This document shows, piece after piece, positions 24,303 through 28,688 of a DNA stretch of 35,727 nucleotides (within the stretch, counting starts at the first letter, position 1; the number at the start of each line of letters is the position of its first letter). This DNA is from an uncultured Bacteroides sp. Its GTDB lineage: Bacteria; Bacteroidota; Bacteroidia; Bacteroidales; Bacteroidaceae. The position numbers and the translations under genes were made by a program. The stretch is from NCBI GenBank assembly GCA_949288715.1, contig CASELH010000059.1, forward strand, positions 1 through 35,727. Reading direction: 5' to 3'. The notes beneath the pieces were generated by a model. The model ran no database searches, was not told the DNA's origin, and saw only the letters and a program-made list of their open reading frames with translations.

Positions 24303-24377
24303 GCCCCTCACGACGGAGAACTGCCATATCCGGTAGAGACTTCCGCCTCTGTCTGCGTCAACCATGAGGGGCTACTT
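24303..24377 (+). terminator. Possible terminator of the hydrolase gene
   Basis: GCCCCTCA (24303-24310) can pair with TGAGGGGC (24365-24372), followed by TACTTTTT. The 54-nt loop is long, although it contains smaller complementary segments. The right arm overlaps the last codon of the convergent anti-sigma gene. Confidence 0.3.
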
Positions 24378-24743
24378 TTTACCGAAAGAACGCTTGAAAT
24401 AGGCCTTACGCATCCAATAATCGAAAAGCAACAAGAGCACGACTAACACGCCCAATGCCCACAGAGGCATGGCGGGCACATTGCAACTGTCGTTTACCAC
24501 CTGCAGCAAATCTACCTTGAAAACATCGGGGGAATAATGCGACAAAACGGCAATGCCACCTGCGGCAAGAGCCAAGGAAACACACAGCAACACTACAGCC
24601 ATACGCCGTCCGGCCTTCCGCTCCTGCAACTGTGCCGCCTCTTCCACCTTTTTCACCATACGGTAATAATAATTGGAAGACAATCTGACCGGTTCTTCTT
24701 GCATCAAAGCCTGTTTCAATCCTTTATCCCTGCCTATTTCCAT
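24372..24743 (-). CDS. Putative anti-sigma factor, membrane-bound
   Basis: The 123-residue protein has a charged N-terminal cytoplasmic part (about 1-42, including LSSNYYYRMVKKVEEAAQLQ) and two membrane helices (about 46-68 and 92-108), ending in a basic tail. Its start overlaps the ECF sigma gene by 10 nt, so the two are translationally coupled. Short membrane proteins in this position usually sequester the sigma factor, but it lacks the zinc-binding HxxxCxxC motif of ZAS-type anti-sigmas and has no clear named family, so the role is inferred from context. Confidence 0.65.
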   Translation of the reverse strand: MEIGRDKGLKQALMQEEPVRLSSNYYYRMVKKVEEAAQLQERKAGRRMAVVLLCVSLALAAGGIAVLSHYSPDVFKVDLLQVVNDSCNVPAMPLWALGVLVVLLLLFDYWMRKAYFKRSFGKK

Positions 24744-25297
24744 AACTGTTCCTCCTCTTTCTTCACTAACAAATATATCTTCTTGCGGATGCGGTGCAAC
24801 CGTACCTTTAAGGCGCCGGGGGAGACACCGACAATACGGGCTACCTCCTGCACATCTTTTTCCTCTTTATAAAATAGAACAATAATCAGTCTTTCTTCCG
24901 GTTCAAGCCGGGAAACAGCTTTTTGCAACAAGTGGATGCGTTCTTCGCTTTCATCATCCAACGCCTCATCGACCACAGCATCCGAAAGCACCGACAACTC
25001 CCGTTCATCCATCACACAAGTATTAAAGTCACGCTTCCGTGCATAAGATATGCCCACGTGATAGGCTATGGCATACAGCCAAGTGGAAAAACTGCTTTTG
25101 CCACGGAAGGTGCGGAGTTTACAGTAAGCCTTCAGAAAGACATCTTGGGTGAGTTCTTCGGCATCTTCCCTGTTACCGGAAAGCCGGAAAAGCAGATTGA
25201 ACACCTGCGTGCTGTATGCCCGCAGAAAGTATTCATACTTCCCGGTGTCTCCATTAAGGACACAATCGATAATATGTTTTTCTGTTTCCGGTTCCAT
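24734..25297 (-). CDS. ECF-family RNA polymerase sigma factor
   Basis: The 187-residue protein has a sigma region 2 at about 20-90 (YEYFLRAYSTQVFNLLFRLS, then DAEELTQDVFLKAYCKLRTF) and a sigma region 4 helix-turn-helix at about 128-178 (LEPEERLIIVLFYKEEKDVQ, then EVARIVGVSPGALKVRLHRI). There is no region 1 or 3, as in all ECF sigmas. It is followed by a membrane protein gene, the likely anti-sigma. An ECF-type promoter directly upstream suggests that it transcribes its own gene. The predicted start site lies only a few bases before the ATG, so the mRNA may be nearly leaderless. Confidence 0.93.
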   Translation of the reverse strand: MEPETEKHIIDCVLNGDTGKYEYFLRAYSTQVFNLLFRLSGNREDAEELTQDVFLKAYCKLRTFRGKSSFSTWLYAIAYHVGISYARKRDFNTCVMDERELSVLSDAVVDEALDDESEERIHLLQKAVSRLEPEERLIIVLFYKEEKDVQEVARIVGVSPGALKVRLHRIRKKIYLLVKKEEEQLWK

Positions 25298-25302
25298 AAT
25301 TA

Positions 25303-25335
25303 CCTATTAGACGCAATGCTACGCCTTAGGTTACA
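25303..25335 (-). promoter_or_regulatory. ECF-type promoter of the sigma/anti-sigma operon
   Basis: On the minus strand TGTAACC (25329-25335), a 15-nt spacer and CGTCTA (25308-25313) form a -35/-10 pair of ECF type. It is the mirror image of the promoter at 25383-25415. This predicts positive autoregulation by the adjacent sigma factor. Transcription should start near 25301, about 4 nt before the ATG. Confidence 0.75.
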
Positions 25336-25382
25336 GTGATATGCCTATTTTCTTTCTACCCTCATTTTTTTATTCGGCTCAA

Positions 25383-25415
25383 TGTAACCTTGCCCGCCTC
25401 TATGCGTCTAACAGG
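25383..25415 (+). promoter_or_regulatory. ECF-type promoter of the divergent membrane protein gene
   Basis: TGTAACC (25383-25389), 15 nt, CGTCTA (25405-25410), with the flanking bases also conserved. The same elements at the same spacing occur inverted at 25303-25335, so one sigma factor should drive both directions. The start codon at 25456 leaves a leader of about 40 nt. Confidence 0.75.
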
Positions 25416-25455
25416 TACAAAGGAATAAATATTAATCATTAAAACAATTACTATT

Positions 25456-25845
25456 ATGATGGATTTTATTACGGTACCGCTTATTACAGGTATTATTGTG
25501 TTGGGTATCTACAAGTTATTTGAACTGTTTGTATGCCGCCGCGAGCGAATTATGCAACTGGAAAAGAGCAATGAACTATGGCCGAACAAGAACATGCTGC
25601 AACATTATGGTTTTCACTTGTCTTTTTCTACACTAAAATGCGGCTGCCTGCTGTTGGGAATAGGAATCGGGCTGCTATTGGGCTACTTGATATGCGCGAC
25701 CACAATACCGGGATTCCTCGAAGATAAAGTTGCTTACTACAGATTACCATCGCTGGTATTTGGCGCATGCGTGTTACTGATGGGAGGACTGGGGTTGCTA
25801 ACAGCCTTTGTCATTGAACTGAAAATAAACAAAAAGCCAGAATAG
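25456..25845 (+). CDS. Small membrane protein, likely ECF-sigma target (DUF6249-like)
   Basis: The 129-residue protein has an N-terminal membrane helix (about 7-25, LITGIIVLGIYKLFELFV), a short charged cytoplasmic loop starting CRRERIMQLEK, and two further helices at about 58-81 and 97-121. The helix-plus-CRRER start resembles Bacteroidales membrane proteins labelled DUF6249 that often neighbour ECF sigma genes; this match is from memory and tentative. It shares a mirror-image ECF promoter with the sigma operon, so it is probably part of the same stress or envelope response. ATG codons at 25456 and 25459 are equally possible starts. Confidence 0.75.
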   Translation: MMDFITVPLITGIIVLGIYKLFELFVCRRERIMQLEKSNELWPNKNMLQHYGFHLSFSTLKCGCLLLGIGIGLLLGYLICATTIPGFLEDKVAYYRLPSLVFGACVLLMGGLGLLTAFVIELKINKKPE

Positions 25846-26228: not shown

Positions 26229-28688
26229 ATGAAGTACATCATTGTAGGCGGAGTAGCCGGAGGAGCCACAGCGGCAGCACGCATCCGGCGGAACACGGAA
26301 GAAGCGGAAATCATCTTGCTGGAGCGGGGCAAGTACATCTCTTATGCCAATTGCGGACTACCATATTATATAGGCGGCGTGATAAGCGAGCGCGATCGCT
26401 TGTTTGTGCAGACGCCGGAGGCCTTTGGGCGGCGGTTCAACATAGACGTGCGCACGCAGTCGGAAGCCACGGCGATAGACGCGGCGCGGCGGGAGGTGAC
26501 CATACGCCGCAGCGACGGAACGACCTACACCGAGGGCTACGACAAATTGCTGCTCTCGCCCGGCGCCTCTGCCGTGCGGCCTCCCCTGCCGGGCATAGAC
26601 AGCGTGGGCATCTTCACCCTGCGCAATGTGGACGACACGGACCGCATCAAACAGTACATGCAGCAGCACAACGTGCGCCAGGCCGTGGTGGTAGGCGGCG
26701 GCTTCATCGGGCTGGAGATGGCGGAAAACCTGCAGGAGGCCGGGGCAGAAGTGGCCGTGGTGGAGATGGCCGACCAGGTAATGGGTCCCATAGACTTCTC
26801 CATGGCTGCACTGGTGCACAGGCACTTGCAGGAGAAGGGTGTGAAACTCTACCTGCAGCAGGCAGTAGAGGCTTTTGAGCCGGCGGGCGGCGACGGCGGC
26901 GTGGACGTGCGCCTGAAGTCGGGCATCCGCCTGCATGCCCAGCTGGTGCTGCTCTCCATAGGGGTGCGTGCCGAGACGCGCCTGGCCTCCGAAGCCGGAC
27001 TGAAGCTGGGCGACATGCGCGGCATCTGGGTAAACGAGTACCTGCAGACCTCTGACCCGGACATTTATGCCGTGGGCGACGCCATAGAGTATCCGCACCC
27101 CCTGACAGGCAAACCCTGGCTGAACTTCCTGGCAGGTCCGGCCAACCGGCAGGCGCGCATCGTGGCAGACAACATGACCTTCGGCAACCGCGAGAAATAC
27201 GAGGGCTCCATAGGCACCTCCATCGCCAAGGTATTCGACCTCACGGTGGCTTCCACCGGACTTCCAGCCAAGCGGCTGAAGCAGATGGGCATGCCTTACC
27301 TCTCGGCCACCATCCACTCCGGCGCACACGCGGGCTACTATCCGGGTGCCTCGCAGATGGATATAAAAATCACCTTTTCGCCTGTCGACGGACGGCTGTA
27401 TGGCGCACAGATAGTGGGCTACGACGGGGTAGACAAGCGCATTGACCAGTATGCCCTGGCCATCAAGCAAGGCGGCACGGTGCACAGCCTCACGCAGCTG
27501 GAGCATGCCTACGCCCCACCCTTCTCTTCGGCCAAAGACCCGGTAGCCATATCGGGCTATGTGGCGGGCAACATTCTTTCCGGCAAAATGACGCCCTTGT
27601 ACTGGCGGGAATTGCAAGCCGCCGACTTGTCTAAAGTCACCCTGGTGGACGTGCGCACGGCTGACGAATATGCCTTGGGACACATAAACGGCGCCAAGAA
27701 CGTGCCACTGGACGACCTGCGCGGACGCCTGCAGGAGATTCCGGCTGACAAGCCCGTTTACGTGTATTGCGCCGTGGGCCTGCGCGGCTATCTGGCCTCC
27801 AACATACTGAAAGGACACGGATACAAAGACGTGCGCAACCTGGTGGGCGGACTCAAGACCTACCTGGCCGCCACCACGCCCGTATGCCTTCCGCCCGACG
27901 GAGAGGGCGGCCACCGGCCTTCCGGCAAGCCTCAGCCGGCCACAGCTCCCGGCGGTGCCAAGGTGATAAAGGTGGATGCCTGCGGCATGCAGTGCCCCGG
28001 CCCCATCTTGAAACTGAAGAAAAGCATGGAAAACCTCCGCCCGGGCGAGCGGATAGAGGTGCTGGCCACAGACGCGGCCTTTCCGCGCGACGCCGAAGCC
28101 TGGTGCCGCTGCACGGGGCACCGCTTCTTGTCGACATCCGCCCAAAGCGGTACCTACAGCGTCAGCATAGAAAAGTCGGCACCTGATGCCTGCAAAGCGC
28201 CGGCCGAGACTGCCGCAAGGCGGGGCAAAACGCTCATCCTGTTCAGCGACGACCTGGACAAGGCGCTGGCCACCTTCATCCTGGCCAACGGCGCAGCAGC
28301 CACCGGGCAGAAGACCACCATCTTCTTTACCTTCTGGGGCCTGAACGTGCTGAAGAAGCAGCACAAGCCGCGCGTGGAGAAAGACTTCTGGGGCAAGATG
28401 TTTGGGTGGATGCTGCCCTCCAGCTCCCTCCGGCTGAAGCTCTCGCAGATGAACATGCTGGGCATAGGCGCCAAGATGATGCGCCACCTGATGGCATTGA
28501 AAGGCATAGACTCCCTGGAGTCACTGCGCAGGCAGGCGCAGGAAAACGGTGTGGAGTTCATAGCCTGCCAGATGTCCATGGACGTGATGGGCATCCGCAA
28601 AGAAGAACTGCTGGATGGCGTGAGCATAGGCGGCGTGGCCACCTACATGGAGCGCGCGGAGCAAGCCAACGTAAATCTGTTTATTTAA
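26229..28688 (+). CDS. Four-module CoA-disulfide/persulfide reductase fused to rhodanese, TusA and DsrE-like domains
   Basis: This 819-residue protein joins four sulfur-handling modules. Residues 1-450 are a flavin disulfide oxidoreductase of the CoA-disulfide reductase/NADH-persulfide reductase type: FAD motif GGVAGG (7-12), redox C42 in SYANCGLPYY, NAD motif VVGGGFIGLE (154-163). Residues 460-548 are a rhodanese with C514 in VYCAVGLRG. Residues 578-650 are a TusA-like sulfur carrier with CPGP (C589; also C585). Residues 665-819 are a DsrE-like domain with C780 in FIACQMSMDVMGI. All candidate cysteines are present, suggesting internal transfer of sulfane sulfur. Such proteins reduce CoA persulfides or disulfides with NAD(P)H. 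A cysteine-rich MarR gene follows 32 nt later. Confidence 0.92.
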   Translation: MKYIIVGGVAGGATAAARIRRNTEEAEIILLERGKYISYANCGLPYYIGGVISERDRLFVQTPEAFGRRFNIDVRTQSEATAIDAARREVTIRRSDGTTYTEGYDKLLLSPGASAVRPPLPGIDSVGIFTLRNVDDTDRIKQYMQQHNVRQAVVVGGGFIGLEMAENLQEAGAEVAVVEMADQVMGPIDFSMAALVHRHLQEKGVKLYLQQAVEAFEPAGGDGGVDVRLKSGIRLHAQLVLLSIGVRAETRLASEAGLKLGDMRGIWVNEYLQTSDPDIYAVGDAIEYPHPLTGKPWLNFLAGPANRQARIVADNMTFGNREKYEGSIGTSIAKVFDLTVASTGLPAKRLKQMGMPYLSATIHSGAHAGYYPGASQMDIKITFSPVDGRLYGAQIVGYDGVDKRIDQYALAIKQGGTVHSLTQLEHAYAPPFSSAKDPVAISGYVAGNILSGKMTPLYWRELQAADLSKVTLVDVRTADEYALGHINGAKNVPLDDLRGRLQEIPADKPVYVYCAVGLRGYLASNILKGHGYKDVRNLVGGLKTYLAATTPVCLPPDGEGGHRPSGKPQPATAPGGAKVIKVDACGMQCPGPILKLKKSMENLRPGERIEVLATDAAFPRDAEAWCRCTGHRFLSTSAQSGTYSVSIEKSAPDACKAPAETAARRGKTLILFSDDLDKALATFILANGAAATGQKTTIFFTFWGLNVLKKQHKPRVEKDFWGKMFGWMLPSSSLRLKLSQMNMLGIGAKMMRHLMALKGIDSLESLRRQAQENGVEFIACQMSMDVMGIRKEELLDGVSIGGVATYMERAEQANVNLFI

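Follow-up and report, generated by a model that had tools for sequence, protein, structure and literature searches.

The 158-nt gap between an ECF sigma factor gene and a divergently transcribed DUF6249 membrane protein gene (positions 25298-25455 of the window, by which we mean the whole 35,727-nt stretch of DNA analyzed here) very probably contains a pair of back-to-back promoters that act independently and serve the adjacent sigma factor, forming an amplifying loop with DUF6249 as its output. The motif TGTAACC-N15-CGTCTA occurred twice in this gap, at 25308-25335 on the minus strand and at 25383-25410 on the plus strand. With their longer arms, both copies read TGTAACCT-N12-TGCGTCTAAYAGG (25303-25335 and 25383-25415, in opposite orientation), and free variation between the two was confined to the 12-nt middles. 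The promoter facing the sigma operon (25303-25335, minus strand) was made up of the -35 part TGTAACCT at 25335-25328, N12, and the -10 part TGCGTCTAATAGG, with its core CGTCTA at 25313-25308; the promoter facing the DUF6249 gene (25383-25415, plus strand) had TGTAACCT at 25383-25390, N12, and the -10 part TGCGTCTAACAGG, with its core CGTCTA at 25405-25410. The pattern that includes these cores, TGTAACC-N13-17-CGTCTA, had 2 matches in the window and 0 in 100 dinucleotide-preserving shuffles of it. The original prediction, made from the sequence alone, had described two opposed copies of the motif in a 158-bp gap, with conserved longer arms and unconserved 12-nt middles, and all of these details proved correct. 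When the source genome was scanned (3,284,642 bases in 103 contigs, 94% complete), TGTAACC-N14-16-CGTCTA had 2 exact matches, both in the 158-nt gap, and the window locus was the only one of the 17 sigma loci in this genome to carry paired elements.

By definition, ECF (group 4) sigma factors have no sigma region 3. The sigma gene of the window (24734-25297, minus strand), identified with Pfam and NCBIfam, encodes a protein of only 187 aa that combines regions 2 and 4, as expected for group 4 of the sigma-70 family (TIGR02937, 1.7e-28; Sigma70_r2, 7e-16; Sigma70_r4_2, 4.6e-12), and its ATG lies 12 nt after the CGTC of the promoter. The second gene of the operon (24372-24743, minus strand) overlaps the sigma gene by 10 bp and encodes a putative anti-sigma factor of 123 aa. 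A homologous second gene was present at 124 of the 147 sigma loci collected in this study, and 18 of the 23 loci without it had been fetched with little sequence past the sigma gene. The structural model of the window protein (pLDDT 80.5, pTM 0.47) had N-terminal helices (residues 3-15 and the start of 23-70) followed by two membrane-length helices. No anti-sigma family in Pfam or NCBIfam matched this protein, a Pfam scan of 22 aligned members gave no anti-sigma match and only scattered weak ones, and a profile search against solved structures returned only designed or unrelated proteins; the second gene thus fell outside the recognized Class I anti-sigma (ASDI) families. As described in the survey PMC7406223, a class I anti-sigma domain is found in the neighborhood of only 6% of Bacteroidetes ECFs, which is consistent with an anti-sigma of an unrecognized type here.

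The divergent gene (25456-25845, plus strand) encodes a 129-aa membrane protein with three long helices in its model (pLDDT 79.1, pTM 0.54). Taken alone, the window protein matched the DUF6249 family (PF19762) at 2.3e-6 and 27.9 bits, below the Pfam cut-off of 33 bits; all 31 aligned members, the window protein included, matched PF19762 at E ≤ 0.01, and a Glu-Arg (ER) pair and a Gly (G) were invariant in their alignment. The gene identities given in the original prediction therefore stood for the ECF sigma and for DUF6249, but the partner of the sigma was without a family match, and its designation as a putative membrane anti-sigma is taken from its position and shape.

We then compared the gap across relatives. 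Sigma homologues came from searches of family and genus genomes and from the best 80 of 342 relatives in named genomes (Bacteroides, Mediterranea, Tannerella, Parabacteroides, Marinifilum, Labilibaculum, Kordia, Maribacter, and others), and 19 further stretches were added from congeneric genomes whose sigma is more distant. This gave a total of 147 sigma loci. A DUF6249-like ORF stood no more than 2.8 kb upstream at 127 of them, and at 4 of these it shared the strand of the sigma gene. Omitting the 20 loci without a DUF6249 ORF and the 4 same-strand loci, and removing duplicates by gap sequence, left 118 distinct divergent gaps from Bacteroidota, which were searched with TGTAAC-N15-17-CGTC (only spacers of 14-16 nt are admitted by this pattern, counted as in the window motif). 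The sigma-facing element was found in 108 gaps, the DUF6249-facing element in 103, and both in 99, with the window gap counted among them. Sampling was uneven, with many loci from uncultured genomes, and nearby relatives are over-represented in these counts because the sigma loci were found through protein similarity. The reversed motif was absent from all 118 gaps, and randomized gaps gave few matches, on average 0.1 in 200 base shuffles and 0.07 in 100 first-order Markov simulations. A chance origin of the pair was dismissed on the combined basis of the window shuffles, the genome scan, the gap shuffles, and the Markov simulations.

Conservation extended to positions that the search pattern had not fixed. 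Among the elements with a 15-nt spacer (77 facing the sigma and 63 facing DUF6249), information at the seventh base of the -35 part amounted to 1.71 bits on the sigma side and 2.0 bits on the DUF6249 side, and at the G before CGTC to 1.66 and 1.34 bits, respectively. The TG preceding CGTC and the TAA after CGTC were also conserved, and the middle of the spacer mostly stayed below 0.25 bits. In the 19 further stretches, a sigma gene was present in 18 (the L211 stretch lacked it), and all 18 had both elements, with CGTCAA or CGTCCA on the DUF6249 side.

By the strict pattern, one or both elements were missing in 19 of the 118 gaps. Two apparent losses (L049 and L102) were artefacts of the gap boundaries, with both elements actually present, and six loci (L027, L035, L067, L122, L129, and L144) had neither element even within 900 nt. 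Ten loci kept the sigma-facing element with no DUF6249 gene in the fetched stretch (L030, L076, L086, L087, L089, L093, L095, L099, L120, and L125); for one of them, L030, the DUF6249 gene was later located about 2 kb away in the same genome (L218). Loss of the half-elements in relatives carrying the same genes, which had been named in advance as an outcome that would speak against the two promoters, was thus not what we saw, with 99 of 118 gaps keeping both. At one locus (L270 in genome G148, positions 316-900), the paired promoters were intact and the sigma frame lacked region 4 and ran into the anti-sigma sequence, which could be a genuine deletion or a mistake in the assembly.

The arrangement of the two copies bears on whether they act separately. 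Their inverted symmetry, and the recurrence in 20 of 99 loci of a 33-35 nt distance from one -35 start to the other, would suit a single inverted operator through which a dimeric regulator controls both genes. Because the pattern excludes spacers outside its own range, we also searched with 3-40 nt allowed; of 215 pairs, 211 still had their two halves 14-16 nt apart. On the sigma side, 108 of 111 pairs fell in this range (15 nt in 77 and 16 nt in 31), and on the DUF6249 side 103 of 104 did (14, 15, and 16 nt in 7, 62, and 34 pairs, respectively). The distance from element to element, in contrast, ranged from 10 to 2219 nt over the 99 loci, with the copies about 1.87 kb apart in L217 and L218 and 2.2 kb apart in L098. 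Two points favor separate promoters: the spacing is constrained within a copy but not between copies, and the sigma and DUF6249 genes each retain an element of their own across separations of 1.86 to 2.22 kb. Together with the unconserved middle of each copy, these distances largely refute the single operator, which we regard as very improbable. The two elements fit independent promoters of one autoregulated sigma, as had been proposed from the conserved -35 and -10 parts and the unconserved spacer, and the presence of a conserved, fixed-spacer -35/-10 element before the sigma gene in 108 of 118 gaps is the hallmark expected of such an autoregulated promoter.

Independent promoters could still be read by a factor other than the neighboring sigma. 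TGTAAC/CGTC is a common theme of ECF promoters, and an unrelated, conserved ECF sigma gene of the source genome (G000:C22:3779-3817; L227 and L236) had the similar sequence TGTAACT-N15-CGTCAA 12 nt before its ATG. A like element was kept 12-15 nt from the ATG in all 30 loci fetched for this second sigma, out of 57 matches in 60 genomes. The promoters might therefore be real but serve chiefly a different ECF sigma, or more than one whose specificities overlap; an overlap of ECF regulons has been proposed for Flavobacterium psychrophilum in the account given in PMC9723704. However, the promoter of the second sigma differed from the window elements in that the seventh base of its -35 part was T in 30 of 30 loci, exact matches to the window motif were nearly confined to the neighborhood of the window sigma, and the motif clustered on the tree of window-type sigmas. 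On this tree (137 rows, built by a quick method), presence of the motif required 13 changes, compared with a mean of 22.5 after shuffling, and none of 500 shuffles was as low. A related sigma clade without the motif (L031-L034, L036, L037, L040, and L041) was separate, with moderate support of 83. We consider reading by another sigma quite improbable. The elements, their conservation and independence, their start-codon distances, and the near-absence of other strict targets (below) are features of the sequences themselves; that the adjacent sigma is the factor recognizing them is inferred from the logic of autoregulation together with the phylogenetic association.

To see how far the motif reaches, we looked for it in 149 congeneric genomes, where the exact 28-mer pattern gave 77 matches in 50 genomes and the reversed controls summed to 31. 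The module of sigma and DUF6249 genes contained 73 of the 77 matches: 70 lay within 700 nt upstream of the sigma gene, one (G129) was beside a DUF6249 gene near a contig end, and two (G148) were between a DUF6249 gene and the sigma frame without region 4. Of the four matches elsewhere, two were in long ORFs (in genomes G261 and G128) and two stood upstream of genes in genomes G210 and G137. These last two genes (at loci L266 and L267, respectively) looked by eye like similar alpha/beta hydrolases; they are a possible third target and the sole hint of a further one. Six of the 53 sigma-bearing congeneric genomes had no exact match. In the source genome, allowing up to two mismatches at a spacer of 15 gave 32 sites (2 exact, 0 with one mismatch, and 30 with two), compared with 98 for the reversed motif; a large regulon reached through relaxed matches was rejected, as the two-mismatch sites were fewer than this control. 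Since 73 of the 77 exact matches sit in the module, the circuit appears nearly closed by the strict motif, and weaker sites could exist. The original prediction had offered the consensus as an entry point to a regulon and had suggested a genome-wide scan for further targets. The consensus was upheld and the scan recovered the module itself, but as an entry point it was weaker than anticipated, with no further strict target in the source genome and almost none beyond the module in the 149 congeneric genomes.

The two promoters differed in their distance to the gene that follows. If transcription is assumed to start 7-9 nt after CGTC, as at ECF promoters, the predicted 5' leader of the sigma mRNA in the window is about 4-6 nt (25298-25303, minus strand) and that of the DUF6249 mRNA about 39-41 nt (25415-25455, plus strand). 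Across the relatives, we took as the sigma start whichever of ATG, GTG, or TTG came first in frame after the sigma-side element (one of 106 loci, L085, had none) and found it ≤13 nt from CGTC in 77 of 105 loci, 14-40 nt away in 9, and >40 nt away in 19. The short distances were seen in Bacteroidales and also in Kordia and Maribacter. Sixteen of the 19 long ones belonged to Marinifilaceae-type loci (L094, L101-L108, L110-L114, L116, and L118; Ancylomarina, Marinifilum, Labilibaculum, and kin), in which the promoter was kept and CGTC lay 88-240 nt from the start. On the DUF6249 side, counted with spacers of 13-16 nt admitted, the first ATG was 25-88 nt from CGTC (median 46; 47 in the window) and never within 13 nt (0 of 103). 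With the sigma promoter so close to the start codon, an mRNA with almost no 5' leader is expected, and the sigma mRNA may begin almost at its start codon; the predicted leaders are roughly 1-6 nt in the short-distance class of sigma genes and about 40 nt for DUF6249. The CGT box of the SM6 promoters of F. psychrophilum has likewise been assigned to the -10 region in the account of PMC9723704.

The missing leader might instead be an effect of annotation, if translation of the sigma began at a start codon further downstream, or if another promoter gave a longer transcript. An extra upstream promoter is possible, the leader length is predicted only from the distance between the -10 part and the ATG, and this distance exceeded 13 nt in 28 of 105 loci. 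In the window, however, the ATG at 25297 is the first in-frame start and the next one is a GTG at codon 32; at 121 of 129 loci, the similarity to other sigmas set in within residues 1-8; and the short distance in 77 of 105 loci recurs in groups as far apart as Bacteroidales, Kordia, and Maribacter. An annotation effect thus appears rather unlikely, and we favor a sigma message that is close to leaderless. The predicted first transcribed bases on the DUF6249 side were conserved well past the -10 part in L201-L208 (about AAAYNNTRCAAAGAACGAA), and TACAAAG from this conserved leader was also present in the leader of the window.

DUF6249 genes accompanied ECF sigmas in other settings too. An additional DUF6249 gene was present in 22 of 23 genomes, and in all 20 fetched loci, which include that of the source genome (G000:C21:22057-22688; L197 and L221, on the same strand as the ECF sigma), it immediately preceded another ECF sigma gene in the same orientation. 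These 20 loci served as a control for the promoter pair, and none had a paired-motif element at the second DUF6249 gene. In L031-L034, the ECF sigma downstream of DUF6249 was of yet another kind, again on the same strand. As an association, the three arrangements point to a role for the DUF6249 family in sigma signaling. A full-text literature search for DUF6249 listed a single paper, which by its title deals with a plant gene family.

Taken together, the data suggest a small self-amplifying circuit, both copies of whose promoter have been kept in distant relatives within Bacteroidota. In the mechanism that we consider most likely, the product of the second gene, a small membrane protein, would hold the sigma inactive until an envelope signal frees it. 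The freed sigma would direct RNA polymerase to both promoters simultaneously. The promoter on the sigma side would close a positive loop, yielding more sigma and more anti-sigma from an mRNA almost without a 5' leader, and the other would yield the DUF6249 membrane protein from an mRNA with an ordinary leader, either as the main protective product or as a modulator of the anti-sigma. A bolder version would have a Bacteroidota-wide, near-closed circuit limited to its own operon and DUF6249, with a sigma mRNA that is leaderless by design next to a partner with a normal leader, sigma synthesis coupled to the state of the ribosomes, and DUF6249 as a recurrent component of ECF signaling and not a mere target. 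We put this forward tentatively, as possible and on balance doubtful. If it were true, the like promoter 12-15 nt before the ATG of the second ECF sigma would point to a general design for self-amplifying sigmas in Bacteroidota.

Autoregulated ECF sigma/anti-sigma operons have their type case in E. coli rpoE-rseA. The module resembles them in that a single operon encodes both a sigma and a membrane protein, with a promoter of the GTAAC/CGTC kind before the sigma gene. It differs in the second promoter copy facing a divergent DUF6249 gene, in the near-absence of other strict targets, and in the short distance, ≤13 nt in 77 of 105 loci, between CGTC and the sigma start. Compared by description only, it is also like the CirY/CirZ-spy system of Phocaeicola vulgatus, another Bacteroidales ECF sigma/anti-sigma pair, for which the account in PMC13114119 gives a short list of most-induced genes, names spy and two downstream genes, and has the sigma gene rise upon deletion of the anti-sigma; unlike the window module, that description includes no divergent DUF6249 gene. 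EcfO/Reo and Das/Dma (ECF21, Bacteroides) likewise pair a Bacteroidales ECF sigma with a membrane anti-sigma, here a putative one, but Reo and Dma are presented as large anti-sigmas reaching the outer membrane (PMC9308784, PMC13114119, PMC13088901), whereas the partner in the window has 123 aa and, in its model, two likely membrane helices. An identity with EcfO/ECF21 was set aside on the size and reach of the anti-sigma. The targets of the SM6 promoters of F. psychrophilum include several type IX secretion genes, and the account of them in PMC9723704, in contrast to the window module, includes no divergent DUF6249 gene.

Among the papers listed by full-text literature searches, none describes the module, as judged by title or the start of the abstract. 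Within this scope, the promoter pair kept across the phylum, the nearly closed strict regulon, the link to DUF6249, and the predicted near-leaderless sigma message were without precedent. Many ECF sigmas of Bacteroidota have no known promoter or targets; according to Ryan et al. 2020 (PMC7366714), none of the alternative ECF sigmas of Bacteroides thetaiotaomicron had a known motif at the time. The present analysis provides a tight consensus for a phylum-wide sigma, TGTAACCT-N12-TGCGTCTAA, and a partner family, DUF6249. About 3.7% of 5' leaders in B. thetaiotaomicron are shorter than 10 nt and leaderless messages are described as rare there (PMC7366714), as they are in F. psychrophilum, with 5.5% (PMC9723704). 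Given this rarity, a conserved sigma message predicted to be near-leaderless would be a ready-made test of leader length, and its position next to a co-regulated gene with a normal leader would provide a contrast that reveals what leader length does. Elsewhere in the window, positions 26229-28688 hold an 819-aa ORF in which, by eye, a pyridine-nucleotide disulfide oxidoreductase is joined to rhodanese-, TusA-, and DsrE-like parts.
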